Part shown: one piece after another, positions 8,879 to 56,355 of the stretch
Layout of the letters: each line of letters begins with the position of its first letter
Numbering within the stretch: the stretch's first letter is position 1
From: Pedobacter mucosus
GTDB taxonomy: Bacteria > Bacteroidota > Bacteroidia > Sphingobacteriales > Sphingobacteriaceae
Direction of reading: 5' to 3'
DNA length: 64,000 nucleotides
NCBI RefSeq assembly: GCF_022200785.1
Contig: NZ_CP087585.1
Coordinates: 3,224,001 to 3,288,000, forward strand
Notes under the pieces: model-generated
The model's input: only the letters and a program-made list of their open reading frames with translations
Databases searched by the model: none
Told to the model about the DNA's origin: nothing
Made by a program: the position numbers and the translations under genes

Positions 8879-8933
8879 AAGCATGTTTAAAAAAAAATAC
8901 TTGTTAAAGCATTAAAATTAGAAATCTATAACT

Positions 8934-9191: not shown

Positions 9192-10076
9192 CTAGGCAAT
9201 ATTATTGAAACTTAAATCACAACAACTTGCTGCTCCAATTAAAGCGGCTAATTCTTTAAGTTCAGAAATTTTAACTGTTGCGTTAATATCATTTCCTTTT
9301 AACGTTGCAATTAATTCGGGAGAGAACTCACTAAAAGCCTGTGCAATATTTCCACCGATAATGATACTATCAATTTTATATTTTCTAACCAAAGGAATTA
9401 AAAACTGAGCCAAATTATAACCAAATTCCATAAAAACGCGTGTAACGAGGTAATCACTTTCAATATAGGCTACAAGTTCTTTAACACCATCCAATTTAAT
9501 TCCGCTCAATTCTTCATAGCGCTTTAAAAACCAACGGGTAGATAAATAATCTTCGGCAATGCCATCTAAAAATTCTGAATTCCATAAGTCGGCATCGGTA
9601 GCTTTGTGCTGAATACATATAGAAGAGCCCAAGCCAGTACCTAATGTAAGGCCCAAAACATTGGGATTGCCTTTGGCTGCACCTGCAAAAACCTCGCCTT
9701 GTAAAAAGCCTGCTGCATCATTTATAAAGTGAATATTTTCTGCTGGTATGTTAAGCCTTTTAGATAATTCATGCTTTACATTAACACCATATAAACTTTT
9801 AAATTTATCCTGGTCTTTTATAAGGCAAATTCCATCTTCGTAATTAAACGGTCCGGGCATTGCAATGCCAACATACCTGGAAAGATGCGCTATTCCATCA
9901 AATGCTTTGTTAATAATTGCACACCAAGCAAGCAAAATAACTTCCATGCTTTCTTGCGAATCAACTGCGTTTCTACTAATTGAATGCTCAATAATGGTTC
10001 TTGTTTCAAGATCGACCAAAGCGGCCGTAATGTGCGAACCTCCAATATCTACACCTAATGCAACAGGTTTTTCCAT
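9192..10076 (-). CDS. ROK-family sugar kinase
   Basis: A complete 294-residue cytoplasmic ROK protein starting at the ATG at 10076. It shows the N-terminal ATP loop (GVDIGGSHIT, about 8-17), the AMPGPFNYE segment, the INDAAG motif (catalytic Asp in NDA), GLTLGTGLGSSI and IIGGNIA. What is missing is the zinc-binding GHx(11)CxCGxxGCxE motif typical of many ROK kinases: its place is taken by LWNSEFLDGIAEDYLS, with no cysteines. Zinc-less ROK proteins exist, so it may still be active. It is the last gene of the mannan unit, 46 bp after GH92, which suggests phosphorylation of mannose or a related sugar released in the cell; this is inferred. It is paralogous to the truncated ROK at 1-277. Confidence 0.88.
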   Translation of the reverse strand: MEKPVALGVDIGGSHITAALVDLETRTIIEHSISRNAVDSQESMEVILLAWCAIINKAFDGIAHLSRYVGIAMPGPFNYEDGICLIKDQDKFKSLYGVNVKHELSKRLNIPAENIHFINDAAGFLQGEVFAGAAKGNPNVLGLTLGTGLGSSICIQHKATDADLWNSEFLDGIAEDYLSTRWFLKRYEELSGIKLDGVKELVAYIESDYLVTRVFMEFGYNLAQFLIPLVRKYKIDSIIIGGNIAQAFSEFSPELIATLKGNDINATVKISELKELAALIGAASCCDLSFNNIA

Positions 10077-10122
10077 TCTATATTTCTTAAAATTTGAAAC
10101 TGTTTCCAGTCAATTATAAATA

Positions 10123-12390
10123 TTACTTACTTAAAGAAAACGGCTTGTCCTCATCAGCTAATCCTCTGTTTAAAGCCGGTTGATTATCCATTTCTAATTT
10201 CAAAACGCCACCTTTTAAAATATCAGCATGTGTTAAAAAATTATGAAAGTAAGGTTTTCCATTTAAAGTTGCCGATTTGATGTAAACATTTTCATCGTTA
10301 TTAGTTGCGGCATCAATTATAAATTTCTGTCCATTTTCTAAATTGATAGTGGTCTTTTTAAACTTCGGGCTTCCTATAACGTACTCTCCTGTGCCTGGCG
10401 TAACGCTGTAAAAACCAATCGCACTTAACACATACCAAGATGAAGTTTGCCCTTGATCTTCATCACCAGGATAACCATTTTCAGTTGCATCGTAAAGTTT
10501 TTTCATTACTTCGCGGGCATGAAACTGAGCTTTCCATGGCTGCTTGGCATAATTATATAGGTAAACCATATGTTGGATGGGTTGGTTTCCATGTGCATAT
10601 TGTCCCATATCCGCAGCTACCATTTCCGTCATTTCATGGATCATCCCACCATAACTACCCACATTAACCTTATTTGGTTCTGTAAAAACAGAATCTAATT
10701 TTGAAGTGAAATTTTTATCTCCGCCCATCATGTTTATCAAACCTTTGGTATCCTGAAAAACAGACCATTGCCAATGCCAGGCGTTTCCCTCAGTAAAGGC
10801 ACCACCCCACGCTATCGGATCAAAATTTGGAGCCCACTTTCCAGATTCTAATTTGCCTTGCATAAATCTCGTAGCCGGATTGTAAACATTTTTATAGTTA
10901 TACATCTGGCGCTCAAAAATATCCATATAGAACTTATTTCCCGTCATTTTTGCAAGCTCATAAGCGCAATAATCATCATATGCATACTCCAAGGTTTTAG
11001 CCGTCGCTTCTCTGTATTTTGGATAAGGAACATAACCCAACTGGTAATATTCTCGCCAACCATCGCGACCATTTGCTGGCCCCCAAGGACCTTTATTTGT
11101 AGCTTCATGCAAGTATGCTTGCAATGCTTTATTTGGGTCGAATGTTCTAATTCCTTTTGCCCATGCATCTGTTAATAACGAAATCGCATGGTTTCCAATC
11201 ATACTTCCAGCCTCGCTTGGAAAAGACCAAGATGGCAACCAACCGCATTGATCATATGCATCGAGCATGGCTTGCATATATCGCCCATGCATTTCAGGTT
11301 GCAATAAACTATTTAATGGAAACTGGGCCCGAAAGGTATCCCAAAACCCCGTGTCGGTGTACATATAACCTTCATGCACTTTCCCATCATAAGGACTAAA
11401 ATAATAAGGTTTTCCGTTTTTATCGAGTTCGTAAAATTTGCGAGAAAACAAGCTTGCTCTAAAGAAGCAAGAGTAGAAAGTTTCCATATCAGCCTGTGAG
11501 CCACCTTCAACAACAACTTTTCCTAAAGATTTATTCCAGACTGCAGCGGCATTAGCTTTAGTTTGTTCTAAGTTTTTATCTTTTCCTAATTCTGTTTTAA
11601 GGTTCAATTCTGCTTGTTCTAAACTGATGTACGATGACGCTGTTTTAACCTGAACTTTTGCACCGGCTTTAAACTCAATGTACGCTCCTTTACCTAAACC
11701 TTCTGCAGAAACTGAATCTGGATTGATGGTATTTTTCTTGTTTTCCCAAGTTCCATAAGCTTTAATTGGCTGATCAAATTGGATTACAAAATAACTTTTC
11801 CAACCTTTTTTGAAACCTTCGCCATTATTAACCCATCCGGTAATTTTGTTTTCCTTTGGATGAATTTGAATGCCACTTAAACGAATATATCCATCTAAAA
11901 CTAAAAAACTTTTCTTGCCTTTTGGATAAGTAAAACGAAGATGAGCACCTCTTTCTGAAGGAGAAATTTCGGTAATCACCTCGTTATCAAATTTTACCTT
12001 ATAATAATTTGGCTTAGCAACTTCATTGGCATGAGAAAATTTAGTTTCCCTTTTATCTTCATCAACAACCAAATTATCAATCATTGGCATTAACGAAAAA
12101 ACGGCGTAATCTCTTGTCCACGAGCTACATTGATGCGCCTGCTGGAAACCACGGATTTTATCCTTAAAATATTGATATTTCCAACCGTCGCCATTTTTGC
12201 CAGTTTGTGGCGACCAAGTGTGCATTCCAAAAGGTAATGCAGTAGTTGGATAAGTATTGCCTCGTGTAAGTTCGTGTTTAGAGTTTGTGCCTTGTAATGT
12301 GTTTACATAATGAACCAAATCCCGCTCTTGAGCAGACAAGTTTTTGGCGAGAAAACAGATAAAAAGAAATGCAATAAATTTAATTTTCAT
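10123..12390 (-). CDS. Exported GH92 alpha-mannosidase
   Basis: A 755-residue GH92 enzyme with a signal peptide ending near AKNLSAQ (about residue 20). The N-terminal beta-sandwich opens with NTLQGT..GNTYPTTALPFGM, the (alpha/alpha)6 part has YTDTGFWDTFRAQFPL and HEMTEM (585-590). The catalytic set is complete: E534 in EGNAWHW is the expected general acid, and D643 and D645 in GDEDQG are the expected base pair, almost the same numbering I recall for B. thetaiotaomicron BT3990 (E533, D642, D644). GH92 enzymes are calcium-dependent, inverting exo-mannosidases; alpha-1,2 is the commonest specificity, but 1,3, 1,4 and 1,6 also occur. It starts 10 bp after the upstream hydrolase gene. With GH76 it points to yeast-type alpha-mannan or high-mannose glycans. 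Confidence 0.95.
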   Translation of the reverse strand: MKIKFIAFLFICFLAKNLSAQERDLVHYVNTLQGTNSKHELTRGNTYPTTALPFGMHTWSPQTGKNGDGWKYQYFKDKIRGFQQAHQCSSWTRDYAVFSLMPMIDNLVVDEDKRETKFSHANEVAKPNYYKVKFDNEVITEISPSERGAHLRFTYPKGKKSFLVLDGYIRLSGIQIHPKENKITGWVNNGEGFKKGWKSYFVIQFDQPIKAYGTWENKKNTINPDSVSAEGLGKGAYIEFKAGAKVQVKTASSYISLEQAELNLKTELGKDKNLEQTKANAAAVWNKSLGKVVVEGGSQADMETFYSCFFRASLFSRKFYELDKNGKPYYFSPYDGKVHEGYMYTDTGFWDTFRAQFPLNSLLQPEMHGRYMQAMLDAYDQCGWLPSWSFPSEAGSMIGNHAISLLTDAWAKGIRTFDPNKALQAYLHEATNKGPWGPANGRDGWREYYQLGYVPYPKYREATAKTLEYAYDDYCAYELAKMTGNKFYMDIFERQMYNYKNVYNPATRFMQGKLESGKWAPNFDPIAWGGAFTEGNAWHWQWSVFQDTKGLINMMGGDKNFTSKLDSVFTEPNKVNVGSYGGMIHEMTEMVAADMGQYAHGNQPIQHMVYLYNYAKQPWKAQFHAREVMKKLYDATENGYPGDEDQGQTSSWYVLSAIGFYSVTPGTGEYVIGSPKFKKTTINLENGQKFIIDAATNNDENVYIKSATLNGKPYFHNFLTHADILKGGVLKLEMDNQPALNRGLADEDKPFSLSK

Positions 12391-43459: not shown

Positions 43460-43500
43460 AAAAAAAAAAAGGCAATCAATAATTGATTGCCTGTTTTTTT
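43460..43500. terminator. Hairpin terminator between CsbD-like gene and GH130
   Basis: AGGCAATCAA (43470-43479) pairs with TTGATTGCCT (43483-43492), flanked by a 10-A run and an 8-T run. It most likely ends the minus-strand csbD-like transcript. Confidence 0.85.
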
Positions 43501-43512
43501 TTGTGAACGAAC

Positions 43513-43698
43513 CTATAAAGAGTTAATCCATTTAACTAGTTCGTCTCTTCCTTTGCCGGTTTTCTGCTGAAGTTTTCCCAATAATTCATCATCTTTTCCT
43601 TCTTCGTGAGCTAAATCATCTTCGGTCAAATCTCCATATGCTTGTTTAACCTTTCCTTTTAATTCATTCCACTTTCCTTTTATTTCTAACTTATCCAT
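43513..43698 (-). CDS. CsbD-family small stress-response protein
   Basis: A 61-residue hydrophilic protein matching the CsbD family across its length: [27 protein letters not shown] then a helical tail. CsbD-like proteins are general-stress proteins whose molecular role is unknown. It is monocistronic: a terminator follows 20 bp after its stop, and the upstream gap is shared with the divergent SusC at 43896. No link with the SusCD pair is seen. Confidence 0.9.
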
Positions 43699-43895
43699 GA
43701 CTTAGTGTTTTATATTTTTGAATACAAAATTGTTTAAAATATAACAACATCACTTAAAAAATGTTTACGCGAACTATATTTCATGATGGTTTATATAAAA
43801 TTGTGATATTTCTGATAAATGTTCTAAAAAAATTTATACTTTAATATTAACTCCAAATCCCTAATCAAACATTTACTAACTAAAACTAAAATTTG

Positions 43896-46800
43896 ATGAA
43901 AAAACTACTTTTAAGTATGATTTTATCTTTCGGTTTAATTTCATTTGCTTTCGCACAAGGCAAAGTTATTCGCGGAAAGGTTACCTCAAATAACGCTGAA
44001 CCATTGCCTGGGGTAAGTGTATTTGTAAAAGGCTCGCCTGGTTCTGGCACGCAAACAGATGCAACAGGTGCATATACATTAACGGCTTCAGATGAAGCAA
44101 AGACGCTCGTTTTCACTTTCATAGGTTTTCAAACAAAGGAAGTTGCCATAACAGGAACAACGATTAATACAAGCCTCGCAGAAGAGAACACAACACTTTC
44201 TGATGTAGTGGTGGTTGGTTATGGTACGCAAAACAGAAGAGACGTAACTGGATCAATCGCTAGAGTTACAGCCGCAGACATGAAAAATTTGCCCCTTACT
44301 ACTATAGAAAGTGCATTGCAAGGTAAGGCTCCTGGAGTTTTTATAAACTCTGGTAGTGGAAAACTTGGTCAGGCGCTTCAAATTCGAGTTCGAGGCATTT
44401 CTTCTATTTCCGCCAGTAATCAACCTTTATTTGTAATTGATGGTGTTCCAATTGTTAGCGATGCTTTAGGTACCTATACGGAAGCTGATAATCCCTTAGC
44501 TGCAATTAGTCCAGACGATATTGAATCTATGGAAGTATTAAAAGATGCCGCTTCTGCTGCTATTTATGGCGCAAGAGGATCAAATGGCGTTGTATTAATT
44601 ACGACAAAGAAAGGTAAAGCAGGTAGAACGAATATCGATTTCGGCTATTATGCAGGTTTCAGTGATCCAACAAGAAAAGGAGAATTCTTGAATGCCGCAC
44701 AATACAAACAATTAATGGAAGAATCTTTCAAGAATATACAATATGATGGTTACAACAACTCATCTGAATTGTGGGAAGATTATACCGGAACAACAGATTG
44801 GGATGGAAATACTGATAATAGTTGGGTAGACGCCTCTTTTAGGAGAGGGCATGTTCAACAATATAACATCAACATAAACGGCGGTGATGCCAAAACACGC
44901 TTCTTACTCTCGGGAAATTACAGCAATAACGATGGAATTATTGTAAGCAACCGATATGTTAGAACGGGCGGCAGAATGAGTTTGGATCATACGGTGTCAA
45001 AAATTTTAGATGTTGGTGGTGCTATCAATATTTCAAAAGTGGATAACTTTCGTATTCCTACTGATAATGCATTTTCAAACCCATTGCAGCTAAATGCATT
45101 GCCTCCAATTCAACCGATTTACGATGCATCAGGAGAATTAAATAACAATACGGTTTACTATAATTCGCTAATTGATATAGCCAACGGAAGCAATTTATCT
45201 ACAACTTACAGAACCTTTGCAAATGCTTATGCAAGTTTAAAATTTACGCCAGATTTAACCTTTAGAAGTGAGTATGGCTTTGATTTTAATAGCCTTGAAG
45301 AAGAGCAATACTTAGGATCAAAAACGCAAGATGGAGGTGGTACAGGTGGATACGGCAATGACTACAATGCAAAATCTATAAACTTCAACACCAACAATAC
45401 GTTAACCTATAATAAGGTTTTTAACCAAAAACATAGTTTAAATGTATTGGGCGGTTTCACTTTTCAAGATACTAAGTTTAGATATGGAACAGTTACCGGA
45501 ACCGGATTTCCATCAGATCGGTTTGTTAAAATTGAAAGTGCTGCAACCATTTCAGCAGGAAGTTCTTTTGAGACTGAATATTCCTTCGTATCATACCTTG
45601 CCAGGGTAAATTATAAATATGATGATAAATACTTAATAAGCGCATCAGTAAGAACAGATGGTTCTTCCAGATTTGGTTCGAATAACAGATACGGAACTTT
45701 CCCTGCTGCATCTTTAGGTTGGATTGCCACGAATGAAGATTTTTTAAAATCCAGTTCTTGGTTAAGCTTATTAAAAGTTAGGGGCAGTTATGGGCTAACA
45801 GGTAACGCTGAGATTGGAAATTTTGCTTCAAGAACACTTTATGGTGGCGTAAATTATGCAGGTACCGCGGGTACTTTGCCAAATCAATTGGGAGATCCAA
45901 ATTTGACTTGGGAAAATACTTCAAACTTTAACATTGGTATTGATTTCGGATTTTTATCAGATAGAATTACGGGTACCATCGAGGCCTATAAGAAAAAGAC
46001 AACAGATTTATTGTTAAATGTGCCTATCCCTGCAACTAACGGTTTCACTTCAATAACTCAAAATATTGGTGATATGCAAAATAAAGGATTGGAATTTTCT
46101 TTAAATACAAGAAACTTTGTTGGCGCTTTTACCTGGAGCACCTCGTTCAACATTGCTTTTAATAGAAATAAAATACTTCGCCTGGTTGATGGTCAGCCAA
46201 TATTTACAGGTGGTAGATTTTTAGGTAGAATAGCAGAAGGCGAACCTTTTGGTTATTTCTACGGCAAGGCTTATGCTGGTGTAGATGGAAACAATGGTGA
46301 TGCCATTTATTATGTAGATGCGAGTCGCACGGCTACAACCAATGATTATAATGTTGCACAAAATCAAAAAATTGGAGATCCAAATGCTAAATATTATGGT
46401 GGTTTTGGAAATCGTTTCACTTTTAAAAACTTTGATTTAGATATTCAAACTCAATTTGTTCAAGGCAACGACATTTACAATATGGCTGGCGGTTTCCAAT
46501 CTGCAAATGGAGATTATTTCGACAATCAAACCATTGATCAAATGAATTACTGGACAACTTCTAACAGCGTAACTTCGATACCTCAGCCGCGGTTTGATTC
46601 TGCAAATGGAACAAGACCATCATCGAGGTATATTCAGGATGGTTCATATTTAAGGGTTAAAAGTGTAGTATTAGGTTATAATATTCCAAAAGCATTAATT
46701 TCAAAGTACAAATTGCAAAATGTTAGAATTTATGCTTCTGCGCTTAACCTTTTTACGATAACCGGATATAATGGTTACGATCCAGAGGTTAATACACCTG

Positions 46801-46901
46801 CAGGTGCATCATTACAAACCAATAATATACAAATCGGTCATGACTTTTATACGCCTCCACAAGCTAGAACGATAACTTTTGGAGTAAACATTGGGCTTTA
46901 A
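43896..46901 (+). CDS. SusC/RagA-family TonB-dependent transporter
   Basis: A 1001-residue outer-membrane transporter. I use the ATG at 43896; the codon before it is TTG in the same frame. Signal peptide to about residue 21 (SFAFAQG), carboxypeptidase-regulatory-like domain (RGKVTSNNAEPLPGVSVFVKG), plug (VVVVGYGTQNRRDVTGSIARV; YGARGSNGVVLITTKKG) and barrel ending in GVNIGL. The SusD partner follows with stop and start codons overlapping. It is the shortest of the five SusC proteins in the window and is on the opposite strand to the mannan units. No LacI-type dyad is present upstream. It is transcribed away from the csbD-like gene, with 194 bp between. Confidence 0.95.
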   Translation: MKKLLLSMILSFGLISFAFAQGKVIRGKVTSNNAEPLPGVSVFVKGSPGSGTQTDATGAYTLTASDEAKTLVFTFIGFQTKEVAITGTTINTSLAEENTTLSDVVVVGYGTQNRRDVTGSIARVTAADMKNLPLTTIESALQGKAPGVFINSGSGKLGQALQIRVRGISSISASNQPLFVIDGVPIVSDALGTYTEADNPLAAISPDDIESMEVLKDAASAAIYGARGSNGVVLITTKKGKAGRTNIDFGYYAGFSDPTRKGEFLNAAQYKQLMEESFKNIQYDGYNNSSELWEDYTGTTDWDGNTDNSWVDASFRRGHVQQYNININGGDAKTRFLLSGNYSNNDGIIVSNRYVRTGGRMSLDHTVSKILDVGGAINISKVDNFRIPTDNAFSNPLQLNALPPIQPIYDASGELNNNTVYYNSLIDIANGSNLSTTYRTFANAYASLKFTPDLTFRSEYGFDFNSLEEEQYLGSKTQDGGGTGGYGNDYNAKSINFNTNNTLTYNKVFNQKHSLNVLGGFTFQDTKFRYGTVTGTGFPSDRFVKIESAATISAGSSFETEYSFVSYLARVNYKYDDKYLISASVRTDGSSRFGSNNRYGTFPAASLGWIATNEDFLKSSSWLSLLKVRGSYGLTGNAEIGNFASRTLYGGVNYAGTAGTLPNQLGDPNLTWENTSNFNIGIDFGFLSDRITGTIEAYKKKTTDLLLNVPIPATNGFTSITQNIGDMQNKGLEFSLNTRNFVGAFTWSTSFNIAFNRNKILRLVDGQPIFTGGRFLGRIAEGEPFGYFYGKAYAGVDGNNGDAIYYVDASRTATTNDYNVAQNQKIGDPNAKYYGGFGNRFTFKNFDLDIQTQFVQGNDIYNMAGGFQSANGDYFDNQTIDQMNYWTTSNSVTSIPQPRFDSANGTRPSSRYIQDGSYLRVKSVVLGYNIPKALISKYKLQNVRIYASALNLFTITGYNGYDPEVNTPAGASLQTNNIQIGHDFYTPPQARTITFGVNIGL

Positions 46902-46921
46902 TGGATATAAATATTAGAAAC

Positions 46922-48289
46922 ATGAAAAATTATAAAAATATATTGGCCGCCAGCATCTTTCTTTTAAGCATCTCATCATGTAAAAAGCAGTTGGAAATCG
47001 AGCCGAAACAATCAATATCATCAAGCGTTGCTTTATCTTCAACAGCTGATGTTCAAAATGCCTTAATTGGCGCTTATACCGTGTTGGCAAGAGGAGATTT
47101 ATACGGAACAAACCTGGTTTTTATTCCTGATGTATATGCAAGCAACAATTATTTAAACTGGACGGGGTCTTTTAGCACCTATCGGGATATATCAAATAAA
47201 GCAATTATATCAACCAATGCTGATGTTTTAAGAACTTGGGTATCTGCATATCGGGCAATCAATATTGCAAATACAGTTATTGGTGCTTTAAATGTGGTAG
47301 CAGATGCCAATACAAAAAGCACAATTGAAGGTAAAGCACTATTTGTAAGGGGAATTATGCATTTTGAATTGGTAAGATTATATGCCCAACCTTATGATGC
47401 AACGGGCGCAAATACTGGTTTAGGAGTTCCGATTATTACAAAACCAGTTCAAACTACAGGTGATGTAGTTTACACTGTGCCAAGAAATACAATTGCTGAA
47501 GTTTACCTTGCTGTAGAAAATGACTTAAAAGAATCAATCACAAAACTTACGTCGGTTGATGAAAAATATGCGTCTATGGCTTTTTTAGCAAGGGTTTATT
47601 TACAAGAAGGAAAATATGCTTTAGCAAGAGATCTTGCAAATGACATTATAACAAATAGTCCGTATACGCTTATCACAAATTCGCTTGAAGCGCCTTTCAG
47701 AACTAAAAAATCCAGTGAAGGAATTTTTGAAATTCCTCAAAACGAGCAAAGTAATGCCGGATCATCAAACGATGGTTTAGCTACTTTTTATGCAAGTTAT
47801 GAAAATTCTACAGGTGGAAATGTGGGTCGAGGCGATGCAAACGTAAACACTACTTTTTATAATTCATTTGAAGCTTTAGATAAGCGAAAAACAGATTTGA
47901 TTTACACTGGAACCGGAGCAAAAAGCGGTTTATTTACGCAAAAATGGACTGATTATTTTGGAAATATTCCTGTGGCTCGCATCACCGAACAATATTTAAT
48001 ACGTGCTGAATGTAATTTTAGGTTAGGTACTTCAATTGGTGCAACAGCGGCAAGCGATATCAATAGATTAAGAACTAGAGCGGGTTTGGGTAATGTAGTT
48101 CCAACGTTAACCCTTATTTTGAATGAGCGTGAAAAAGAATTGGATTACGAAGGTTTTAGGTTACATGATTATAAAAGAACCAAGCGTTCAATTGGTGCGT
48201 TTGCTTATAATGATCCGAAATTAGTTTTTCCTATACCTGATCGTGAAGTGAGTTCAAACAAAGCCTTAGTTCAGAATACTGGCTACTAA
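46922..48289 (+). CDS. SusD/RagB-family glycan-binding lipoprotein
   Basis: A SusD-like protein of 455 residues from the ATG at 46922, the first of MKNYKNILAASIFLLSISSCKK, a clean lipoprotein signal with Cys at about residue 20. A start at 46901, overlapping the SusC stop, would add seven hydrophilic residues before the signal. Motifs: GKALFVRGIMHFELVRLYAQPYD (TPR), DINRLRTRAGLG, LNEREKELDYEGFRLHDYKRT and FPIPDREVSSNKALVQNTGY. It is shorter than the other SusD proteins here. A terminator lies 22 bp after the stop, so the unit has two genes only, and no enzyme identifies its glycan. Confidence 0.94.
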   Translation: MKNYKNILAASIFLLSISSCKKQLEIEPKQSISSSVALSSTADVQNALIGAYTVLARGDLYGTNLVFIPDVYASNNYLNWTGSFSTYRDISNKAIISTNADVLRTWVSAYRAINIANTVIGALNVVADANTKSTIEGKALFVRGIMHFELVRLYAQPYDATGANTGLGVPIITKPVQTTGDVVYTVPRNTIAEVYLAVENDLKESITKLTSVDEKYASMAFLARVYLQEGKYALARDLANDIITNSPYTLITNSLEAPFRTKKSSEGIFEIPQNEQSNAGSSNDGLATFYASYENSTGGNVGRGDANVNTTFYNSFEALDKRKTDLIYTGTGAKSGLFTQKWTDYFGNIPVARITEQYLIRAECNFRLGTSIGATAASDINRLRTRAGLGNVVPTLTLILNEREKELDYEGFRLHDYKRTKRSIGAFAYNDPKLVFPIPDREVSSNKALVQNTGY

Positions 48290-48310
48290 TAATAAATTAT
48301 AATGCGATTA

Positions 48311-48342
48311 AAATGCCCTCTGATTTGAGGGCATTTTTTTTT
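48311..48342 (+). terminator. Rho-independent terminator after the fifth SusD
   Basis: AAATGCCCTC (48311-48320) pairs with GAGGGCATTT (48327-48336), loop TGATTT, then a T-run to 48342. It ends the plus-strand SusC-SusD transcript and may also serve the DUF6266 gene from the other side. Confidence 0.9.
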
Positions 48343-48361
48343 AATAATTGAAATAAAATTA

Positions 48362-48979
48362 TCAAAAGATAATCAATCCAGCGTACACACTATTGGAAAT
48401 GCTTTTCCGATCATCTGCAATAAAGGAAATCCAGGTATGAAATGTTTTGCCTTTCTCAATATATGGGATCTTTAATAGGTCTGTACCATCTTGTCTTCTT
48501 GCGCCGCTTAGGATAAAATAAGCTTCATTCGTTTCTTCTTGGTAGACAAGTAACATCACTTGATCCGTAGTTTTTTGAAGCCCATTACTCAGCTGATTAT
48601 TCCAAATAAATTGCAATCCGCTTTCATTGGTAGCAACTGTTGTTTCCTCCGCTCCTTGTAAACTTCCTTGGGTTAAACGAATATTTGAGTAAATGATTTG
48701 ACCATCATTGTCAAATGCATGCAGCATATTGTAGGATTTAGCTGCATTATGGGCCGAAATCATTTTCAATTTTCCCTCCAGGTTGAAACCTACCCGAACA
48801 AAATAAAGAACAGAGGAAAGGAAACCCTGCATAAGGCTAAACCTCTGCCTGCATTTTTTTTGATCAGCTGTACCCTTTTTATTCTTTTTGCTAGGCCTAG
48901 GTAAACCTTTAATTACCCATTTACCATTGAGTTGATAGCCAATAATGCTTCCAACTTTCCCGGTGAAACCACCGTTCAC
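48362..48979 (-). CDS. DUF6266-family protein with non-AUG start
   Basis: A 205-residue protein recognised as DUF6266 from the N-terminal GGFTGKVGSIIGYQLNGKWVIKG, the phylum-specific signature, and a C-terminal beta-rich body. I report the GTG at 48979. However the family usually begins about 7 residues earlier with a MA(x)I-like start, and the in-frame upstream codons here read ATT-ATT-GCA-ATA-TTA-AAA-GAC-GGA (to 49003) before an in-frame stop. So either initiation uses ATT at 48998-49000, which would be unusual, or the first residues are lost. No function is known; these proteins are often found near variable or phage-like genes. It lies convergent to the SusD gene and faces away from the defence-like cassette. 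Confidence 0.75.
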   Translation of the reverse strand: MNGGFTGKVGSIIGYQLNGKWVIKGLPRPSKKNKKGTADQKKCRQRFSLMQGFLSSVLYFVRVGFNLEGKLKMISAHNAAKSYNMLHAFDNDGQIIYSNIRLTQGSLQGAEETTVATNESGLQFIWNNQLSNGLQKTTDQVMLLVYQEETNEAYFILSGARRQDGTDLLKIPYIEKGKTFHTWISFIADDRKSISNSVYAGLIIF

Positions 48980-49341
48980 TCCGTCTTTTAATATTGCAAT
49001 AATTTTTTAGATTATGGGATGATTAATACTAAGATAACAAAAAGGCTATTAAAGATTGTTATTAATTTCATATTAATTCATACTTAAGTGATGGTTAGTT
49101 CGGATGGAATTGTCACTAGTCCGAACCAACCCCGACCCAGCTCCCTATTTACTCCGTTGCAATAGTTATATTAGCAATAAGTTTACATATAATTCCCCTA
49201 TACAATTAAGGTTTTCTGGCTTTCGTTAATATAATCCTTGTTATTTATCAATTAAGGAGATATTTTACAACAACTGTTTATCTAAACAAAACCCTATCTT
49301 GCTGGCTTAGTAAAACCGTTTACGCTCCAAATCATCATTTA
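48980..49341. other. 362-bp intergenic region with hairpin
   Basis: No ORF is convincing. The region holds an imperfect inverted repeat (49093-49131) and AT-rich DNA with a sharp local GC-rich patch (49117-49150) of different base composition from its neighbours. It may be a boundary of the accessory block or a regulatory element. Confidence 0.45.
49093..49131. repeat. Imperfect inverted repeat
   Basis: GGTTAGTTCGGA (49093-49104) pairs with TCCGAACCAACC (49120-49131) with one mismatch and a 15-base loop. It lies between the divergent DUF6266 and Cys-rich genes, near the left edge of the accessory block. Confidence 0.6.
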
Positions 49342-49674
49342 TTGAAAACGCTCCTATTTTTCCTTTTAGGCTTAACCTTATTCAACTTTACGCCAACAAA
49401 ACCCACACCTAAACCACCTGTAGCTACCTGCTATGGATATAGCCCTTGTTCTGCTTGTTCCAATTGTAGCCGTTGTAAGTATTGTGGTGCCGGAGGTAGC
49501 TGTGGCGCTTGTTCGCAAAAAACAAGTAGAACCACAAATAACTTAATAATTGGTAAAGCCGCGAAATTAAAAAGTGCAAATTATGTAGGCCAATGCAAAG
49601 GCATAACTCAAAAAGGCAGTAGATGCAAACGAAATGGGAATGGGAGTAGTTATTGCTGGCAACATGGGAAATAG
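49342..49674 (+). CDS. Small Cys-rich exported protein
   Basis: A 110-residue protein that starts at a TTG (49342); no ATG lies upstream in frame. The N-terminal LLFFLLGLTLFNFTPTKP is a signal or anchor, followed by a Cys-rich block (CYGYSPCSACSNCSRCKYC, then CGAC) with CxxC spacings, and a C-terminal QCKGITQKGSRCKRNGN..YCWQHGK. The last block resembles a short C-x(8)-C...C-x(2)-H knuckle seen in DUF5763-like proteins, which I recall with modest confidence. It is 95 bp before the NUDIX gene and on the same strand, so it may belong to the cassette. Metal binding is likely from the Cys and His spacing, function unknown. Confidence 0.6.
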   Translation: MKTLLFFLLGLTLFNFTPTKPTPKPPVATCYGYSPCSACSNCSRCKYCGAGGSCGACSQKTSRTTNNLIIGKAAKLKSANYVGQCKGITQKGSRCKRNGNGSSYCWQHGK

Positions 49675-49769
49675 GTAATGATTTACTTAGATAGTTCTAA
49701 AAAGCTTGCTGCTATATATTTACTCATTACTTGGCTTAATTTAATTAATATTGGCATTTGAAAATTTGT

Positions 49770-50192
49770 ATGGAGAAATTAAATCATATAAAAAGTAAAA
49801 GCATTCTAGTTGCTTGTGCAATTATAAAAGATGATTTCGGAAATATTTTAGTCGCTCAGCGAAGTGCTAACATGACTCTGCCGTTAAAATGGGAATTTCC
49901 GGGAGGTAAAGTAGAAAACGGTGAAACTTACGAACAAGCAATAGTGCGAGAAATAAGAGAAGAATTAAGTATCCTAATTACCATCTGCGATAAATTGTCA
50001 GTTTCTACCTATCGTTATCCAACCTTTAGCATTACTTTAATCCCTTTTTTATGCAAGATAAAAGAAGGAGAAATTAAACTCACCCAACATCAGACTTTCT
50101 GTTGGCTTAATTCAAATAACTTATTAGATTTGGATTGGGCAGAAGCTGATATTCCTGTTGCTCAACAATATTTAAACTCGCTCAACAAATAA
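49770..50192 (+). CDS. NUDIX hydrolase (MutT-like)
   Basis: A 140-residue cytoplasmic NUDIX protein. I chose the ATG at 49770; the frame extends to a TTG at 49758, but MEKLNHIKSKSILVACAII fits the family better. The NUDIX box is nearly complete: G46, E52, R60-E61, E64-E65 in GKVENGETYEQAIVREIREELSI, with Ser in place of the usual Gly after the EE pair. Upstream VAQRS and LPLKWEFPGG fit the MutT-type 8-oxo-dGTPase subgroup, but NUDIX enzymes act on many nucleoside-diphosphate-X substrates. The stop is 3 bp before the helicase start, so the two are surely co-transcribed. Within a defence-like cassette it could process a nucleotide signal or modified nucleotide; this is inferred. Confidence 0.9.
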   Translation: MEKLNHIKSKSILVACAIIKDDFGNILVAQRSANMTLPLKWEFPGGKVENGETYEQAIVREIREELSILITICDKLSVSTYRYPTFSITLIPFLCKIKEGEIKLTQHQTFCWLNSNNLLDLDWAEADIPVAQQYLNSLNK

Positions 50193-50195
50193 CAT

Positions 50196-53100
50196 ATGTC
50201 ATTCGAACTCGGTCTGTACGAACAATTGATCACTAAATTAATTGCTTCAAAACTAGACCAGATGGATGAAGAGAAATTCTTCATTCAAAAAACCGTGCTT
50301 GATAAATCTGAAGCGGCTAAATACCTAAGTCTATATCTTTCGGAAACCATTCAATTTGCTTTACAACAAGTTAAAGAAACTGAAAATGATGGTATTCATC
50401 AAAAGATTAAGCTTTCAAATCAGATTATTCAGTTGCTAATGAATGCTTTACCTAAGCTAGAATTAAGTAACAACCTTATCAATTCTGAAGGCCAATTATT
50501 AGAAGCCGTTTTATCAATAGAAGATTCACCTTTTCCTGATTTAAAAGCACGGGTTAAGCAAATTATGCCCTATACGCGACTAAGTCAGAGTGAGCTTTTT
50601 ACAGGCAGTAACGCGGGTATATCTTTAGAAAGCGAAATCAAAAAAGAAATTCTTTCTGCTGATGAAATCTGTTGGTTGGTATCTTTCATTAAGTTTTCAG
50701 GTATTAGAATTTTCAAGGATGAGTTGGAAACCTTTACCAATAGTGGCCGCAAATTAAAAATAATTACAACCACTTATATGGGTGCAACGGATGTAAAAGC
50801 GATAGAATTTTTATCCAGTTTGAAAAACACAGAAATTAAAGTTTCGTATAATACAGAACATGAACGCTTACATGCTAAAGCTTATTTGTTTTTAAGGAAA
50901 TCAGGCTTTGATACGGGCTATATTGGTTCTTCAAATCTTTCACGCTCGGCCCTCACGAATGGACTCGAATGGAATTTAAAAGTTACCCAAAAGGAAATCG
51001 GTCACATTATAGATAAGTTTAAAAAAACATTTGATACCTATTGGGCAGATAAGGAATTTGAGCTCTATACCTTTGGCGAAGATAGAAATAAATTAAGCAG
51101 TGCATTAAAACAGCAAAGCAACTACACTAATCGATCGATGTCTTTCTTTGATATCACACCTAAGCATTATCAGCAAGAAATTCTAGATGAGCTTGAATCG
51201 GAAAGGGTAAACCATAATCGATTTAGGAACTTAATTGTAGCAGCTACTGGAACAGGTAAAACCGTTATTTCAGCTTTTGATTATAAGAGGTTTCAAGCTA
51301 AAAACTCATCGGCTAAATTATTATTCATCGCTCATAGAAAAGAGTTATTGACCCAGGCGCAAGATACTTTCAGGCATGTGCTTCGAGATGCAAACTTTGG
51401 GGAACTTTGGGTTGATGGAATTGAACCGGCAAGTTATGATCATATTTTTGCTTCTATCCAAACGCTGAATAATCGGCTACCAGATTTAAAGTTAAGTGCT
51501 GGTTATTATGATTTTATAATTGTGGATGAAGTTCATCATATCGCTGCCAATTCTTATAGGTCTGCTCTTGGCAAATTTTCACCATCCATATTATTAGGCT
51601 TAACCGCAACACCAGAAAGGAATGACGGAATTGACATTTTAAAAGATTTCGACAATACCATCGCGGCAGAAATTAGATTGCCAGAGGCGCTTAACGGCAA
51701 GATGCTTACTCCATTTCAATATTTTGGCATTTCAGATTCGATAGATTTAAGTGTTGTAAAGTGGCGTAACGGTAGATATGAAGCTAGTGAACTAACCAAA
51801 ATTTATACCAGTAACGATCGCCGTGTGGGTGAAATTATTACGAATTGCGAAAAATACCTTACCGCTATCAATGAAGTTAGGGCGCTTTGTTTCTGCGTAA
51901 ATAAGGAGCATGCTAGCTTTATGGCAGAGAAATTTTGCATTAATAAATTGAAGGCTGATTATATCACTTCTGATAGCAGCCCAGACAAAAGAAATACGAT
52001 CAGGCATCGCCTTTTTACCAAAGAAATAAATTTTCTTTTTGTGGTAGATATGTTTAATGAAGGAGTAGACATTCCAGAAATTGATACCGTTCTTTTTTTA
52101 AGGCCAACAGAAAGTTTAACTATTTTTTTACAGCAACTTGGGCGAGGTTTGCGTTTAGCAGAAAATAAAGATTTTTTAACCGTGCTTGATTTTGTTGGAC
52201 AGGCAAATGTGGAGTACGATTTCGAACATAAGTTTAGGGCTTTGGTTGGGAAAACCCACACCCCAATTATAACTGAAATTGAGGAAAACTTTCCTCATTT
52301 ACCACTAGGTTGCAGCATCATTCTAGAGAAAAAAGCGAAGGCCATAATTCTAGCAAACATTAAAGCAGCAACGGGCTTTAACCGCAGGCAATTGATTAGT
52401 AAGTTGCAAAACTTTAAGCATCAATCCTCAGCAGCACTATCATTAAGCAATTTTCTAAGTTTTACGGGTTATGAGGTAGCAACGCTTTATGATAAGGATA
52501 GTTGGAAAAGACTTTGCGTTTCAGCTGGCTTGATTCCAGATTTTATAGAACCTTTAGAAAGCACCGTAACCAAATGCATCAAGAAGCTGATGCAGTCGAA
52601 TTCTATCTCTTATTTCAGATTTGTTCTACAGTTTATTGAAACAGACTTTGATTCTAAAGATCTTTCAGAGGAAAAGCAACTCATGGCACTTATGTTCTAT
52701 TATGATTTATTTCAGAAAGACGCTAAAAAAATGGGCTTTACCGATTTGAAGAAAAGTTTTGATGCGCTACATTCAAATCCTGTAATGATAAGTGAATTGA
52801 AAGAAGTGATTCATTATTTAATTCAGCAAGTCAAGTTTGTAGAGAAACCTATTGATTTGCCTTTTGCTTTTCCGCTACAAATTCATAGCCGCTATAATAG
52901 AGATCAAATTCTAGTGGCTATAAGGCTTCATCAGTTTAAAACAAGTTCTTCAAATCGCGAGGGTGTTGCCTTGAACAAAAAATTAAATGCAGAAGTATTG
53001 TTCATCACACTTAAAAAATCGGAAAAAGAATATTCGCCAACTACACTTTATGATGATTATGCAATAAATGATACGCTGTTTCATTGGCAATCTCAAAACG

Positions 53101-53345
53101 CCACAGCATCTGCCTCTGAAAAAGGTAAATCCTATATCGGCCACCATGTTCAAAATAAAGAGATTTTAATTTTTGTACGGGAGCAAAATAAAGATGAATT
53201 CAAAAATACAATGGGTTATGTATTTCTTGGAAAGGCGAATTTTCAAAAAACTTACGGAGAAAAACCTATGAATATCCAGTGGTTATTAGAAGAGCCTATG
53301 CCAGCTTATATTTGGAAAGATAGTGCTAAATTAGCCCAAGCCTAG
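50196..53345 (+). CDS. PLD-nuclease / DEAD-type helicase / DUF3427 protein
   Basis: A 1049-residue protein with three parts. Residues ~120-280 form a phospholipase D-like nuclease: H226-A-K in LHAKAYLFLRKSGF, then GSSNLSRSAL and GLEWN, with the expected acidic residue of HxKx4D replaced. Residues ~320-690 form a superfamily 2 helicase: Walker A GTGKT with K355, D444-EVHH, LGLTATPERND, and motif VI QQLGRGLR at 646-653. The C-terminal ~350 residues fit DUF3427 (RQLISKLQNF, LSFTGYEVATLYDKDSWKRLC, VREQNKDEFKN). This architecture is known from other bacteria and is often suspected in defence, but I know of no assigned function. It starts 3 bp after the NUDIX stop and ends 20 bp before the HNH gene. 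Motifs look intact, so activity is likely. Confidence 0.9.
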   Translation: MSFELGLYEQLITKLIASKLDQMDEEKFFIQKTVLDKSEAAKYLSLYLSETIQFALQQVKETENDGIHQKIKLSNQIIQLLMNALPKLELSNNLINSEGQLLEAVLSIEDSPFPDLKARVKQIMPYTRLSQSELFTGSNAGISLESEIKKEILSADEICWLVSFIKFSGIRIFKDELETFTNSGRKLKIITTTYMGATDVKAIEFLSSLKNTEIKVSYNTEHERLHAKAYLFLRKSGFDTGYIGSSNLSRSALTNGLEWNLKVTQKEIGHIIDKFKKTFDTYWADKEFELYTFGEDRNKLSSALKQQSNYTNRSMSFFDITPKHYQQEILDELESERVNHNRFRNLIVAATGTGKTVISAFDYKRFQAKNSSAKLLFIAHRKELLTQAQDTFRHVLRDANFGELWVDGIEPASYDHIFASIQTLNNRLPDLKLSAGYYDFIIVDEVHHIAANSYRSALGKFSPSILLGLTATPERNDGIDILKDFDNTIAAEIRLPEALNGKMLTPFQYFGISDSIDLSVVKWRNGRYEASELTKIYTSNDRRVGEIITNCEKYLTAINEVRALCFCVNKEHASFMAEKFCINKLKADYITSDSSPDKRNTIRHRLFTKEINFLFVVDMFNEGVDIPEIDTVLFLRPTESLTIFLQQLGRGLRLAENKDFLTVLDFVGQANVEYDFEHKFRALVGKTHTPIITEIEENFPHLPLGCSIILEKKAKAIILANIKAATGFNRRQLISKLQNFKHQSSAALSLSNFLSFTGYEVATLYDKDSWKRLCVSAGLIPDFIEPLESTVTKCIKKLMQSNSISYFRFVLQFIETDFDSKDLSEEKQLMALMFYYDLFQKDAKKMGFTDLKKSFDALHSNPVMISELKEVIHYLIQQVKFVEKPIDLPFAFPLQIHSRYNRDQILVAIRLHQFKTSSSNREGVALNKKLNAEVLFITLKKSEKEYSPTTLYDDYAINDTLFHWQSQNATASASEKGKSYIGHHVQNKEILIFVREQNKDEFKNTMGYVFLGKANFQKTYGEKPMNIQWLLEEPMPAYIWKDSAKLAQA

Positions 53346-53365
53346 CGATTAAATAATTATAACAA

Positions 53366-54325
53366 TTGAATTCAACGTTCCAAAAATACCTTAACGCTTT
53401 TACCCGCCTTAAACGTGGGGTAACACAATATGGCTTGGCACCACACAAACCTGTGTTGTTATTAAGCTTAATAGAACTTATCGAAAAAGGAATAGTGGAA
53501 AATAATCAATTTGAAGTTAATGCTGATCTTGTTGCCACCTTTAAAGAAAACTGGCTGCTGCTTGTGCCTACTATGCACCAACCTGATTTCACGCAACCAT
53601 TTTATTATTTACAAAGCGAAAAAGTAACAGGCAAACCCTTTTGGATCTTGCAGCCGAATGTTGGGATGCAAATTAATGCTCATATCAAATCGGTAATACG
53701 TTTAAGTGAAACATGTGCATTTGGCTATTTTGAGCCAGAACTCTTTTTACTCTTAAACGATTCACAAAATAGGGCACTTGCCAGTAATCTTTTGCTTAAT
53801 ACTTATTTTGAAACAAGCAAGGCTAATTTCATAACAGCCAAAAACAATGGAGAAGGTTACCTGCACGACCAAGAAGATTTTATTTTAAATGAACCAGAAG
53901 CGGTATATAAACGCGTCATCATTAATATCGAAGAAGATGTGTTTGTAAGAAACGGCTTATTTAAAAAGTTGGTACCTAAAGTATATGGCAATCAATGTAG
54001 TTTTACAGGTATGCAGCTGAGTAGTACCTTTGGCCACAGCTTTGTTGATGCCTGCCATATTGTTCCCTTCAGCCAAACCCATAATGATAAGGTGAATAAT
54101 GGTATTGCACTTTGTCCAAACCTGCATCGTGCTTTTGATCGTGGCTTGGTAAGTATCACTAATAATTACACCATTTTAGTTTCTCAACACCTTATTGAGA
54201 AGGAAAATCATGCTTATGGTTTGAAGGGATTAGCAGGAAAAAAAATTTTACTACCAAATAAGCAAAGATATTTTCCTGAAATTGCAGCAATTGAATGGCA
54301 TCGGGAGCAGGTGTATAAAAGTTAA
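53366..54325 (+). CDS. HNH endonuclease with ScoMcrA-like sulfur-binding N-terminus
   Basis: A 319-residue protein starting at a TTG (53366); no in-frame ATG serves. The C-terminal half holds an HNH site: VDACHIVPFSQTHNDKVNNGIALCPNLHRAFDRG (H of CHIVP, N of VNNGIAL, H of LHRAF), the HNH_2-type fold used by restriction enzymes. The first ~100 residues, with APHKPVLLLSLIELIEKG and later FYYLQ and WILQP, resemble the sulfur-binding domain of ScoMcrA-type endonucleases, which recognises phosphorothioate-modified DNA. The match is from memory of the family motif and should be checked. It is third in the cassette. A modification-dependent restriction function is inferred; no Dnd or Ssp modification genes are visible, so it may attack foreign modified DNA. 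Confidence 0.8.
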   Translation: MNSTFQKYLNAFTRLKRGVTQYGLAPHKPVLLLSLIELIEKGIVENNQFEVNADLVATFKENWLLLVPTMHQPDFTQPFYYLQSEKVTGKPFWILQPNVGMQINAHIKSVIRLSETCAFGYFEPELFLLLNDSQNRALASNLLLNTYFETSKANFITAKNNGEGYLHDQEDFILNEPEAVYKRVIINIEEDVFVRNGLFKKLVPKVYGNQCSFTGMQLSSTFGHSFVDACHIVPFSQTHNDKVNNGIALCPNLHRAFDRGLVSITNNYTILVSQHLIEKENHAYGLKGLAGKKILLPNKQRYFPEIAAIEWHREQVYKS

Positions 54326-54404
54326 TGGCAATAATTAGAGAGACTGATTAAATCACTACTGTACCTTTATATTACCCTCGAAAGTTTATTCTGACCACCA
54401 CTAT

Positions 54405-54440
54405 TTAAAAAAAATGCCCCCTGATATAGGAGGCATTTCA
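54405..54440 (-). terminator. Terminator for acs
   Basis: AAATGCC (54412-54418) pairs with GGCATTT (54432-54438), with CCT/AGG inside and one mismatch, and a run of A before it that becomes a U-tail on the minus strand. It may also stop the HNH transcript from the other side. Confidence 0.75.
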
Positions 54441-54459
54441 TATCTTAAAAATTAGAAAG

Positions 54460-56355
54460 CTAAATACCTTTCACCGCTGCTATAATTTCCTCAACAACAT
54501 TTGGATCCAACAAGGTTGAAGTATCCCCTAAATTCGTCGTTTCTCCTTCAGCAATTTTGCGTAAAATACGCCTCATAATTTTTCCTGAACGTGTTTTTGG
54601 CAGGCCTGAAACAAATAATATTTTATCAGGTTTTGCAATTGCTCCGATTACCCGGGTAACGGTTTGTAAAATATCCTTTTTTGATAATTCTACATCACCA
54701 TGCATTTCAGGATATATTACGAAAGCATAAATTCCTTGTCCTTTCACATCATGAGGATAACCCACAACTGCACTTTCTACCACACCAGCATGCATATTAA
54801 TAGCATTTTCTACTTCAGCTGTGCCAATTCTATGTCCAGAAACATTCAATACATCATCTACCCTACCGGTAATTCTGTAATATCCATCTTCATCGCGTAA
54901 GCAACCATCACCTGTAAAATAAAGATTTTCGTATGTAGAAAAATAGGTCTGTTTACAACGCTCATGATCTCCATAAGTGGTTCTTAACATGCCTGGCCAT
55001 GGAAATTTGATACAAAGATTTCCCATTACGCCATTTCCTTCAATTTCCTTTCCGTTTTCATCAACCAAAATAGGCTGAATACCAGGTAATGGTAATGTAG
55101 CGAAACTTGGTTTTGTTTTGGTAACTGTAGCAATTGGCGAAATCATAATTCCACCAGTTTCTGTTTGCCACCAGGTATCAACAATTGGGGCTTTACCGTG
55201 GCCGATTTTTTCATCAAACCAATGCCAAGCTTCCTCATTTATAGGTTCTCCAACAGATCCTAAAACCCGAATGGAGCTTAAATCTTTTCCGTTTAGCGGA
55301 TCATCACCATAACTCATTAACGAACGAATTGCCGTTGGCGCAGTGTATAATGTATTTACTTTGTGTTTTTCTACAATATCCCAAAAACGAGACGGACTTG
55401 GATAAGTTGGTATTCCTTCAAATAAAACAGAAGTTGCACCTTGAGAAAGCGGGCCATAAACAATGTAAGAATGACCGGTAATCCAACCAATATCTGCGGT
55501 ACAAAAATAAACTTCACCAGGTTGATAATTAAATACATTCGAAAATGTATAACCTGCATAAACCATATAACCACCACATGTATGCACTACACCTTTTGGC
55601 TTACCGGTAGAACCTGAAGTATATAAAATAAATAACATATCTTCAGCATCCATTTCTTCAGCTTCGCAAATATCATTAACGTGTTTAACTTCATCTTCCC
55701 ACCAAACATCCCGGCCTTTTAACATCGAAACTGGTGTACGAACATGTGTTAAAACGATGCACTTTTCTACAGTCGGACAACCAATCAGCGCATCATCAAT
55801 TACATCTTTTAATGGAATTTGTTTATTGCCTCGATAAGATCCATCGGCTGTAATCACTAATTTACATTGTGAATCATTGATGCGATCAGCAATCGATTTG
55901 GCAGAAAAACCTCCAAAAATTACCGAGTGAACGGCACCAATACGGGCACAAGCTAAAACTGCTATAGCCAATTCAGGAACCATAGGCATATAGATACAAA
56001 TGCGATCGCCTTTTTTTGCACCATTACGCTTTAAAACGTTCGCAAAGCGACAAACCCGTTCATGCAACATTTTATAGGTTAAGGTTACACTTTCTTCTTC
56101 AGGATTATTCGGTTCCCAGATAATGGCTGGCTTGTCTCCACTTAAGGCAAGATGGCGATCTAAACAATTTTCGGTAATGTTTAATTTTGCGCCTTCAAAC
56201 CATTTAATATTTGGCTCCGAAAAGTTCCATGAAAGCACTTTGTACCAAGGTTGTCGCCATTGAAAATTCTGTGCTACCTCGCCCCAAAATTGTTCAGGGT
56301 TTTCCACACTCTTTTTATAATCTTCTTCGTATTGCTTAAAAGATGTAATTTGCAT
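54460..56355 (-). CDS. acs: Acetyl-CoA synthetase
   Basis: A 631-residue AMP-forming acetate-CoA ligase, which makes acetyl-CoA from acetate, ATP and CoA in the cytoplasm. It has the AMP-binding motif LYTSGSTGKPKGVVHT, the acetate pocket region WWQTETGG and the acetylatable lysine site GLPKTRSGKIMRRILRKI near the C-terminus, and is of family length. It is monocistronic with its own terminator. The gap to the divergent 56496 gene is 140 bp. No regulator is adjacent. Confidence 0.97.
   Translation of the reverse strand: MQITSFKQYEEDYKKSVENPEQFWGEVAQNFQWRQPWYKVLSWNFSEPNIKWFEGAKLNITENCLDRHLALSGDKPAIIWEPNNPEEESVTLTYKMLHERVCRFANVLKRNGAKKGDRICIYMPMVPELAIAVLACARIGAVHSVIFGGFSAKSIADRINDSQCKLVITADGSYRGNKQIPLKDVIDDALIGCPTVEKCIVLTHVRTPVSMLKGRDVWWEDEVKHVNDICEAEEMDAEDMLFILYTSGSTGKPKGVVHTCGGYMVYAGYTFSNVFNYQPGEVYFCTADIGWITGHSYIVYGPLSQGATSVLFEGIPTYPSPSRFWDIVEKHKVNTLYTAPTAIRSLMSYGDDPLNGKDLSSIRVLGSVGEPINEEAWHWFDEKIGHGKAPIVDTWWQTETGGIMISPIATVTKTKPSFATLPLPGIQPILVDENGKEIEGNGVMGNLCIKFPWPGMLRTTYGDHERCKQTYFSTYENLYFTGDGCLRDEDGYYRITGRVDDVLNVSGHRIGTAEVENAINMHAGVVESAVVGYPHDVKGQGIYAFVIYPEMHGDVELSKKDILQTVTRVIGAIAKPDKILFVSGLPKTRSGKIMRRILRKIAEGETTNLGDTSTLLDPNVVEEIIAAVKGI

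Follow-up and report, generated by a model that had tools for sequence, protein, structure and literature searches.

A SauUSI-type restriction gene and an adjoining NUDIX gene with predicted activity on 5-substituted cytosine nucleotides in Pedobacter mucosus

The window analysed here is a stretch of 64,000 nucleotides from the Pedobacter mucosus genome (contig NZ_CP087585.1, forward-strand positions 3,224,001 to 3,288,000), and its subject is a cassette of three open reading frames (ORFs), all on the plus strand, encoding in order a NUDIX hydrolase, a helicase protein and an HNH endonuclease, with gaps of 3 bp and then 20 bp (Table 1). Pfam assigned NUDIX (4e-17) to the first protein, PLDc_2 (6.8e-12), ResIII (1.5e-39), Helicase_C (1.9e-13) and DUF3427 (1.1e-26) to the second, and HNH_2 (4.6e-13) to the third. 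A first-pass annotation had described three co-directional genes with these gaps and domains, DUF6266 and Cys-rich genes upstream and acs directly after the cassette, all of which was borne out; acs is convergent with the cassette, the NUDIX ORF opens at TTG 49758, and the ATG noted then lies inside it. The NUDIX and helicase genes are the core of the cassette, and the HNH gene is optional.

Table 1. Features of the cassette and its surroundings, in window coordinates (aa, amino acids).
Feature	Position	Strand	Remarks
NUDIX gene	49758..50192	+	TTG start; inner ATG 49770; NudG/3GWY-type, predicted substrate 5-substituted (d)CTP
SauUSI-type PLD-SF2 helicase-SRA restriction enzyme gene	50196..53345	+	1049 aa; PADLOC mREase_IV 3.9e-224
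PLD nuclease domain of helicase protein	50640..51044	+	aa 149-283; H226-x-K228 invariant, 45 rows
SF2 motor of helicase protein	51153..52157	+	aa 320-654; Walker A 349-356, DEVH 444-447
DUF3427 / SRA-like reader	52578..53318	+	aa 795-1041; D954, W964 align with SauUSI D858, W868
SBD-like + HNH endonuclease gene, optional third member	53366..54325	+	TTG start
SBD-like domain of HNH protein	53366..53803	+	~aa 1-146; H27, K28, P78 invariant in 15 rows
HNH_2 nuclease motif	53996..54157	+	aa 211-264; H231, N245, H254 invariant in 15 rows
DUF6266 gene within insertion	48362..48979	-	Pfam DUF6266 5e-28
Cys-rich small protein gene within insertion	49342..49674	+	ORF list, Pfam scan
acs	54460..56355	-	convergent with cassette
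Insertion between susD and acs, with cassette, DUF6266 and Cys-rich genes	48269..54405	.	~6.1 kb; alignment to same-genus genome

The middle protein is recognisable as a Type IV restriction enzyme of the SauUSI group. It matched the PADLOC model for Type IV methyl-directed restriction enzymes PDLC03659 at 3.9e-224 (744 bits; PDLC03658, 287 bits), its best solved relative was SauUSI (7clg, 3.1e-82), and it holds a PLD nuclease, an SF2 helicase and a C-terminal reader in a single chain, as the SauUSI type requires. A 45-row profile of the helicase protein spanned SauUSI residues 30–920, into the SRA-like reader (E = 2.6e-142). In the modelled SauUSI pocket with a flipped 5-methylcytosine (5mC), Asp858 contacts the base, on which Trp868 stacks; the reported SauUSI site is S-5mC-N-G-S, with 5mC or 5-hydroxymethylcytosine (5hmC), and the enzyme cuts such DNA (PMC7913695). 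Counted on the printed alignment, these two residues correspond to D954 and W964; both are invariant in 45/45 rows, and so are H226 and K228 of the PLD H-x-K and the SF2 motifs. At F841 of SauUSI the window protein has a Phe, and I842 falls on a position held by Val or Ile. Given a pocket with D954 and W964 invariant and, among the other four named residues, two matched and two changed, 5mC/5hmC reading is the most likely specificity of the window enzyme, as predicted from these residues, and could differ in detail.

The window NUDIX has an Asp in its A-D motif, as do NudG and the Bacteroides fragilis protein 3GWY (Q5LBB1), the second-best PDB match at 2.7e-21; E. coli MutT has Asn at this base-contact position. 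The NudG-type Asp was found in 72/73 cassette rows (the other row has a gap) and 39/39 stand-alone rows, and the catalytic E65, E68 and E69 in every row without a gap there, the rows and the tree built from them including L085, which duplicates the window gene, L022, a split gene counted as two rows, and L018, a partial gene. Reported kcat/Km values for 3GWY are 6.7x10^6 on 5-Me-CTP, 4.8x10^6 on 5-Me-dCTP, 4.4x10^6 on 5-MeOH-dCTP and 8.5x10^4 on 5-OH-dCTP, and that for NudG on 5-methyl-dCTP is 1.3x10^6 (PMC5158307). The predicted substrates of the window NUDIX are 5-Me-dCTP and 5-hydroxymethyl-dCTP (5-hm-dCTP), which would be the free forms of the bases read by SauUSI, since 3GWY and NudG take 5-Me-dCTP and 3GWY also takes 5-MeOH-dCTP. 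The genome has no second close NUDIX of this type besides the cassette copy, the next match reaching 26.8 bits. On the NUDIX tree (128 columns), cassette and stand-alone forms are intermixed, with 15 changes against a shuffle mean of 35.

Pairing was counted in 80 named loci with the helicase, in 151 genomes of the family (16 helicase-bearing) and in 395 genomes of the phylum (32 helicase-bearing). A NUDIX gene lay within 300 bp of the helicase on the same strand in 55/80 named loci, first in 48 and last in 7, with a 4-bp overlap in 32 of the 48 NUDIX-first loci. It stood directly beside the helicase in 11/16 family and 12/32 phylum helicase-bearing genomes, at a crude chance of 0.0022 per genome, and a chance neighbour was rejected on this excess in both genome samples. 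Any NUDIX of the window type was present in 14/16 helicase-bearing against 36/135 other family genomes (E <= 1e-10, p = 3e-6), and in 15/32 against 51/363 phylum genomes (p = 3e-5), the latter counted at E <= 1e-20, most weaker rows being frames of 350–400 amino acids, presumably MutY; the adjacency and co-occurrence p-values ignore kinship, and the first-pass filter of the genome search can miss distant NUDIX genes. Among 112 non-redundant helicases, 62 were NUDIX-first, 8 NUDIX-last (mainly Clostridia), 32 had no NUDIX and 10 lay at a contig edge; gene order varies from group to group, the helicase tree showing 10 changes of state against a shuffle mean of 35. From the 25 named loci without a NUDIX within 300 bp, 14 genomes were checked; 8 carry such a NUDIX elsewhere, and the other 6 are metagenome-assembled genomes or uncultured. 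A helicase pattern search of viral contigs gave no match. The genome context of 3GWY was sought in 86 genomes of one family, which may simply not contain Bacteroides, and was found in none.

The first-pass annotation had proposed that all three genes work together as a restriction cassette, would be found elsewhere in the same order, and have in the NUDIX an odd and informative partner. The last two points held, the order NUDIX, helicase and close SBD-type HNH recurring in 14/80 named loci (the NUDIX being split in L022 and cut by the contig end in L018); a restriction cassette is likewise upheld, with the pair as its core. A strict three-gene system was rejected, since the HNH gene is found in just 19/62 NUDIX-first loci, compared with 0/32 NUDIX-less loci (Fisher p = 0.0002, kinship ignored). 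Of the 19, two are imperfect examples, L011 having a different HNH with another N-terminus and L100 a fragment, and the HNH count among the 80 named loci includes L011 and two fragments in L010. The HNH gene lies on the opposite strand in L101 and upstream in L099. At L010:5971-9832, outside the set of 112 helicases, a decayed cassette was seen, with helicase and HNH both fragmented and no NUDIX.

An SBD-like N-terminus of the third protein, also named in the first pass, was recovered with a profile match to SBDHga1 (8h0l) at 8.3e-23; the model for restriction of phosphorothioate (PT) DNA, NF045808, gave 102 bits, under its cut-off of 180. The HNH motif is intact in 15/15 rows. Sulfur-pocket residues are H, R/K, Y and P, with roles described in PMC6224610. 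In the window protein H27, K28 and P78, invariant in 15 rows, were equated to this pocket by motif only, no Tyr precedes P78, and the position of the Tyr lid holds Gln or Leu in the aligned rows. PT reading is an uncertain assignment for the HNH protein.

The same pairing extends to plasmids and to a second class of modified-cytosine enzyme. In S. aureus (L192) the NUDIX gene occupies 3484-3876 and the SauUSI reading frame, which matches 7clg without a difference over residues 1-655, has its Met at 3878. Plasmids from three further species (L. plantarum, L. curvatus, H. canadensis) carry a NUDIX and helicase pair too, and the H. canadensis cassette NUDIX is 54% identical to 3GWY. A plasmid search with the window NUDIX gave 7 records at 1e-15, and in 6 of them the NUDIX has as neighbour a gene, or part of one, of SauUSI-like or VcaM4I-like type: SauUSI in S. 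aureus, a SauUSI-like gene in H. canadensis, a VcaM4I-like HNH gene on a Sphingomonas plasmid (4.9e-85), a divergent one on a Priestia plasmid (1.3e-64), another, going by coordinates alone, in a second Priestia record, and in Selenomonas a 176-amino-acid ORF matching a VcaM4I-like protein at 1.2e-19. The EVE domain of VcaM4I is reported to bind 5mC and 5hmC DNA (PMC7897488). No modified-cytosine enzyme stood beside the NUDIX in the seventh record, from Paenibacillus, nor beside a Butyrivibrio plasmid NUDIX found with 3GWY as query. Among seven SauUSI-like plasmid matches below full length, a NUDIX adjoins four (H16-H19) and does not adjoin two (H10, H12), the record of the seventh (H13) being without annotation; no NUDIX was found beside helicase homologues on Spiroplasma and Rhodobacter plasmids, or in the retrieved loci of 4 VcaM4I-like matches from Bacteroidota.

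Several plasmid loci carry further genes of related kind. On the L. plantarum plasmid the NUDIX-helicase pair is followed by a MazG-like pyrophosphohydrolase (L235:5308-5628; PF12643, 3.7e-11), so that this cassette holds two unrelated families of one reaction class. A MazG-type replacement of the NUDIX in NUDIX-less cassettes was unsupported by two scans of neighbouring ORFs: Pfam showed no MazG among the best 25 of 83 families (72 of the 88 neighbour ORFs scanned), most families matched once falling outside those 25, and phmmer with the L. plantarum MazG-like protein against the ORFs of 189 loci gave a best E of 0.031. Selenomonas pSRC2 (L242:3998-5547) has the NUDIX, the short VcaM4I-like ORF and a nucleoside 2-deoxyribosyltransferase gene in a row, with macro-domain and DUF262 genes near, and on a Rhizobium phaseoli plasmid (L253:1534-2920) a gene for Vsr (very short patch repair) endonuclease, another enzyme linked to 5-methylcytosine, comes directly after a VcaM4I-like HNH gene.

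Beside the observed domains, conserved residues, pairing and insertion, we infer a NUDIX substrate, an enzyme specificity and a self-protection role, which together give the following mechanism. The SRA-like reader of the SauUSI-like protein would detect 5mC or 5hmC in incoming DNA, and its PLD nuclease would make the cut, linked to recognition through the ATPase. The NUDIX would hydrolyse 5-Me-dCTP and 5-hm-dCTP to monophosphates, and so would keep bases salvaged from foreign DNA or from phage precursors out of the host's own chromosome, which would otherwise become a restriction target; it would thereby take the place of a protective methyltransferase, which is missing from Type IV systems. 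A second nuclease for modified DNA, perhaps for PT DNA, may come from the optional SBD-HNH gene. The best-supported idea in this scheme is the shared chemistry, the NUDIX and the restriction enzyme probably acting, to judge from their sequences, on the same modification in nucleotides and in DNA respectively. The scheme as a whole, in which a NUDIX acting on nucleotides protects the host of a Type IV restriction cassette, we consider an even call. A similar, evenly balanced judgement applies to the wider proposal that a 5-substituted-dCTP hydrolase has been repeatedly recruited beside unrelated nucleases for the same base (SauUSI-like and EVE-HNH), where it would either protect the cell itself or hit phage precursors as a second line of attack. 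Three points favour self-protection: Type IV enzymes come without a methyltransferase, the NUDIX gene mostly stands first, with an overlap, and its stand-alone relatives look sanitiser-like.

A number of observations weigh against this scheme. The majority of NUDIX genes of this type are stand-alone, the 36/135 helicase-less family genomes with one among them; at 20 stand-alone loci with 109 neighbours, the best 25 of 80 PADLOC families match 1–3 proteins each, and Pfam on the same neighbours gives mainly metabolic families. No neighbouring NUDIX was found for the 32 of 112 helicases noted above, including 4 full-length plasmid relatives (L001-L004), and no adjacent one in 20/32 helicase-bearing phylum genomes; two near-complete family genomes with the helicase have no NUDIX of the window type at all, and the NUDIX is therefore not essential. 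C5-methyltransferases were not significantly rarer with the helicase (6/16 against 76/135 family genomes, p = 0.19), and the window genome itself contains a C5-methyltransferase match. Seen from the VcaM4I-like enzyme the link is weaker, since an adjacent NUDIX was found in 3 of the 14 plasmid records, and in none of the 4 others whose regions were read. Two of the six named SauUSI pocket residues are changed, M829 aligning with Glu and Y831 with Val. The window NUDIX is just 37% identical to 3GWY, the top PDB hit for it, 5x1x, carries the name 'Mutator mutT protein', and it scores 99 bits on the NCBI MutT model TIGR00586 (cut-off 97.9), so that curation would call it MutT, a name at odds with the residue test. 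The plain MutT considered in the first-pass annotation thus agrees with the model score, just passed, and disagrees with the NudG-type Asp, and a MutT-type enzyme is thought unlikely on account of Asp instead of Asn, though the score is above the cut-off. 5x1x also has the NudG-type Asp, and over aligned residues 4-126, compared by eye, it has the same letters as the S. aureus NUDIX adjacent to SauUSI. With that NUDIX gene ending 1 bp before SauUSI, 5x1x would give an experimental structure for a protein that is likely to be a restriction partner. Among the neighbours of the stand-alone genes (L193-L212), the commonest Pfam family was Glu/Leu dehydrogenase (7 members in 109 neighbours), and gdhA also lies near E. 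coli nudG and near a Priestia plasmid NUDIX.

The main rival to self-protection, and a strong one, judged possible and rather unlikely, makes the NUDIX an anti-phage weapon that destroys phage hm-dCTP and m-dCTP and starves replication, the enzyme cutting whatever modified DNA is made. It draws on the same substrate evidence (3GWY kinetics, 37% identity) and is suited by the mobile, insertion-type location and by the second, MazG-like pyrophosphohydrolase in L. plantarum; the kinds of enzyme that adjoin the NUDIX act on 5hmC DNA, VcaM4I having been assayed against T4gt (PMC7897488). A weapon is less well matched by NUDIX relatives that are common as stand-alone genes with mainly metabolic neighbours, as a sanitiser would be, and the NUDIX-first overlap suits an operon with the antidote first, a point that does not extend to the reverse-order loci, mostly from Clostridia. 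We hold it improbable that the gene is a housekeeping nudG- or mutT-like one riding with the restriction gene without joint function. Such a passenger would account for the many stand-alone relatives, for the lack of another close NUDIX of this type in the genome, for a score that barely passes the MutT model and for the intermixing of cassette and stand-alone forms in 15 changes on the tree; it fails to account for adjacency far over chance in two samples, 4-bp overlaps, differing gene orders, a number of changes well below the shuffle mean, and the pairing with VcaM4I-like enzymes as a second class. Clearance of free 5-substituted dCTP that would block the modified-base pocket of the restriction enzyme is very improbable. 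In its favour, a crystal structure of the unrelated CMoRE has 5hm-dCTP bound in the recognition domain, so that modified-cytosine pockets can bind free nucleotides; against it, 5hm-dCTP gave CMoRE no stimulated cleavage of ordinary DNA (PMC12923530).

The cassette lies in an insertion, delimited against a same-genus genome (G556, stretch L225), where window 43514-48268 corresponds to 7159-11911 and window 54406-54561 to 11946-12100. There susD directly meets acs, and window 48269-54405 was therefore taken as inserted; a second stretch (L229) agrees, window 43461-48268 aligning beside its acs end. Flanking the insertion are SusC/SusD and glycosidase genes and acs. Terminator-like stems with a common AAAATGCCC were seen at both ends of the insertion (window ~48310-48342 and 54406-54440), the empty site in L225 having one, and the stem may have been doubled when the insertion entered a convergent terminator. 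With PADLOC models at 1e-5, 0/36 other window ORFs (>=90 amino acids, non-overlapping) gave a match; the defence island to which the locus had been likened at first pass was rejected, and the cassette is a lone insertion.

Type IV restriction enzymes act without a methyltransferase partner, and the means by which their hosts escape cutting of their own DNA once modified nucleotides reach the pool have, to our knowledge, been little studied. A hydrolase for the same base beside the nuclease would, if the scheme is true, be a direct answer to that problem. The restriction arm is of a known kind, the middle protein being a recognisable SauUSI-group enzyme, and the NUDIX pairing suggests a form of immunity that acts on free nucleotides and DNA alike. 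In a literature search that left most subscription papers and all bioRxiv preprints outside its scope, no work joining nucleotide hydrolysis to modified-DNA restriction was found among the papers listed (12 of 497 in the widest search), nor any linking NUDIX with DUF3427, SauUSI or modification-dependent restriction, these being treated apart in the single paper that contains them. The scheme would also explain why PADLOC flags the NUDIX family as a defence candidate (PDC-S07), with many calls probably housekeeping. PDC-S07 matches the window NUDIX at 6.3e-49, and also E. coli nudG (L190:3491-3898, 4.8e-44) and mutT (L191:1045-1434, 6.3e-39), and because housekeeping NudG and MutT match, the model is not specific to defence. 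Published prevalence may largely count housekeeping NUDIX genes, as the value of 99% in Enterobacter (PMC12851794) probably does; in S. suis, PDC-S07 was reported as co-localised with RM type IV in 23/23 occurrences, in a source whose main text does not contain the word Nudix (PMC12813430).

Compared with known systems, the window cassette is closest in its middle gene to SauUSI of S. aureus (7clg), with which it shares the PLD nuclease, the SF2 ATPase, the coupler and the SRA-like reader, and which also has a NUDIX gene before it, ending 1 bp upstream; the window protein differs in ~100 extra amino acids at the N-terminus, in two of the six named pocket residues and in having an HNH gene in the operon. 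The NUDIX shares with NudG/Orf135 and 3GWY the NUDIX box and the A-D-motif Asp, at 37% identity to 3GWY, but is encoded in a restriction cassette, passes the NCBI MutT model and has a substrate that is predicted. PADLOC PDC-S07 takes in this NUDIX, and differs from the cassette partner in taking in housekeeping NudG and MutT as well. The third protein resembles the SBD-HNH PT-dependent endonucleases (SprMcrA, EcoWI; NF045808) in its SBD-like N-terminus, its H/K and P by motif and its HNH C-terminus, whereas it falls under the NF045808 cut-off and has Gln or Leu replacing the Tyr lid. VcaM4I (EVE-HNH, 6yex) has plasmid relatives that adjoin the same kind of NUDIX; the window contains no such enzyme, and its HNH protein resembles VcaM4I over the HNH part alone.

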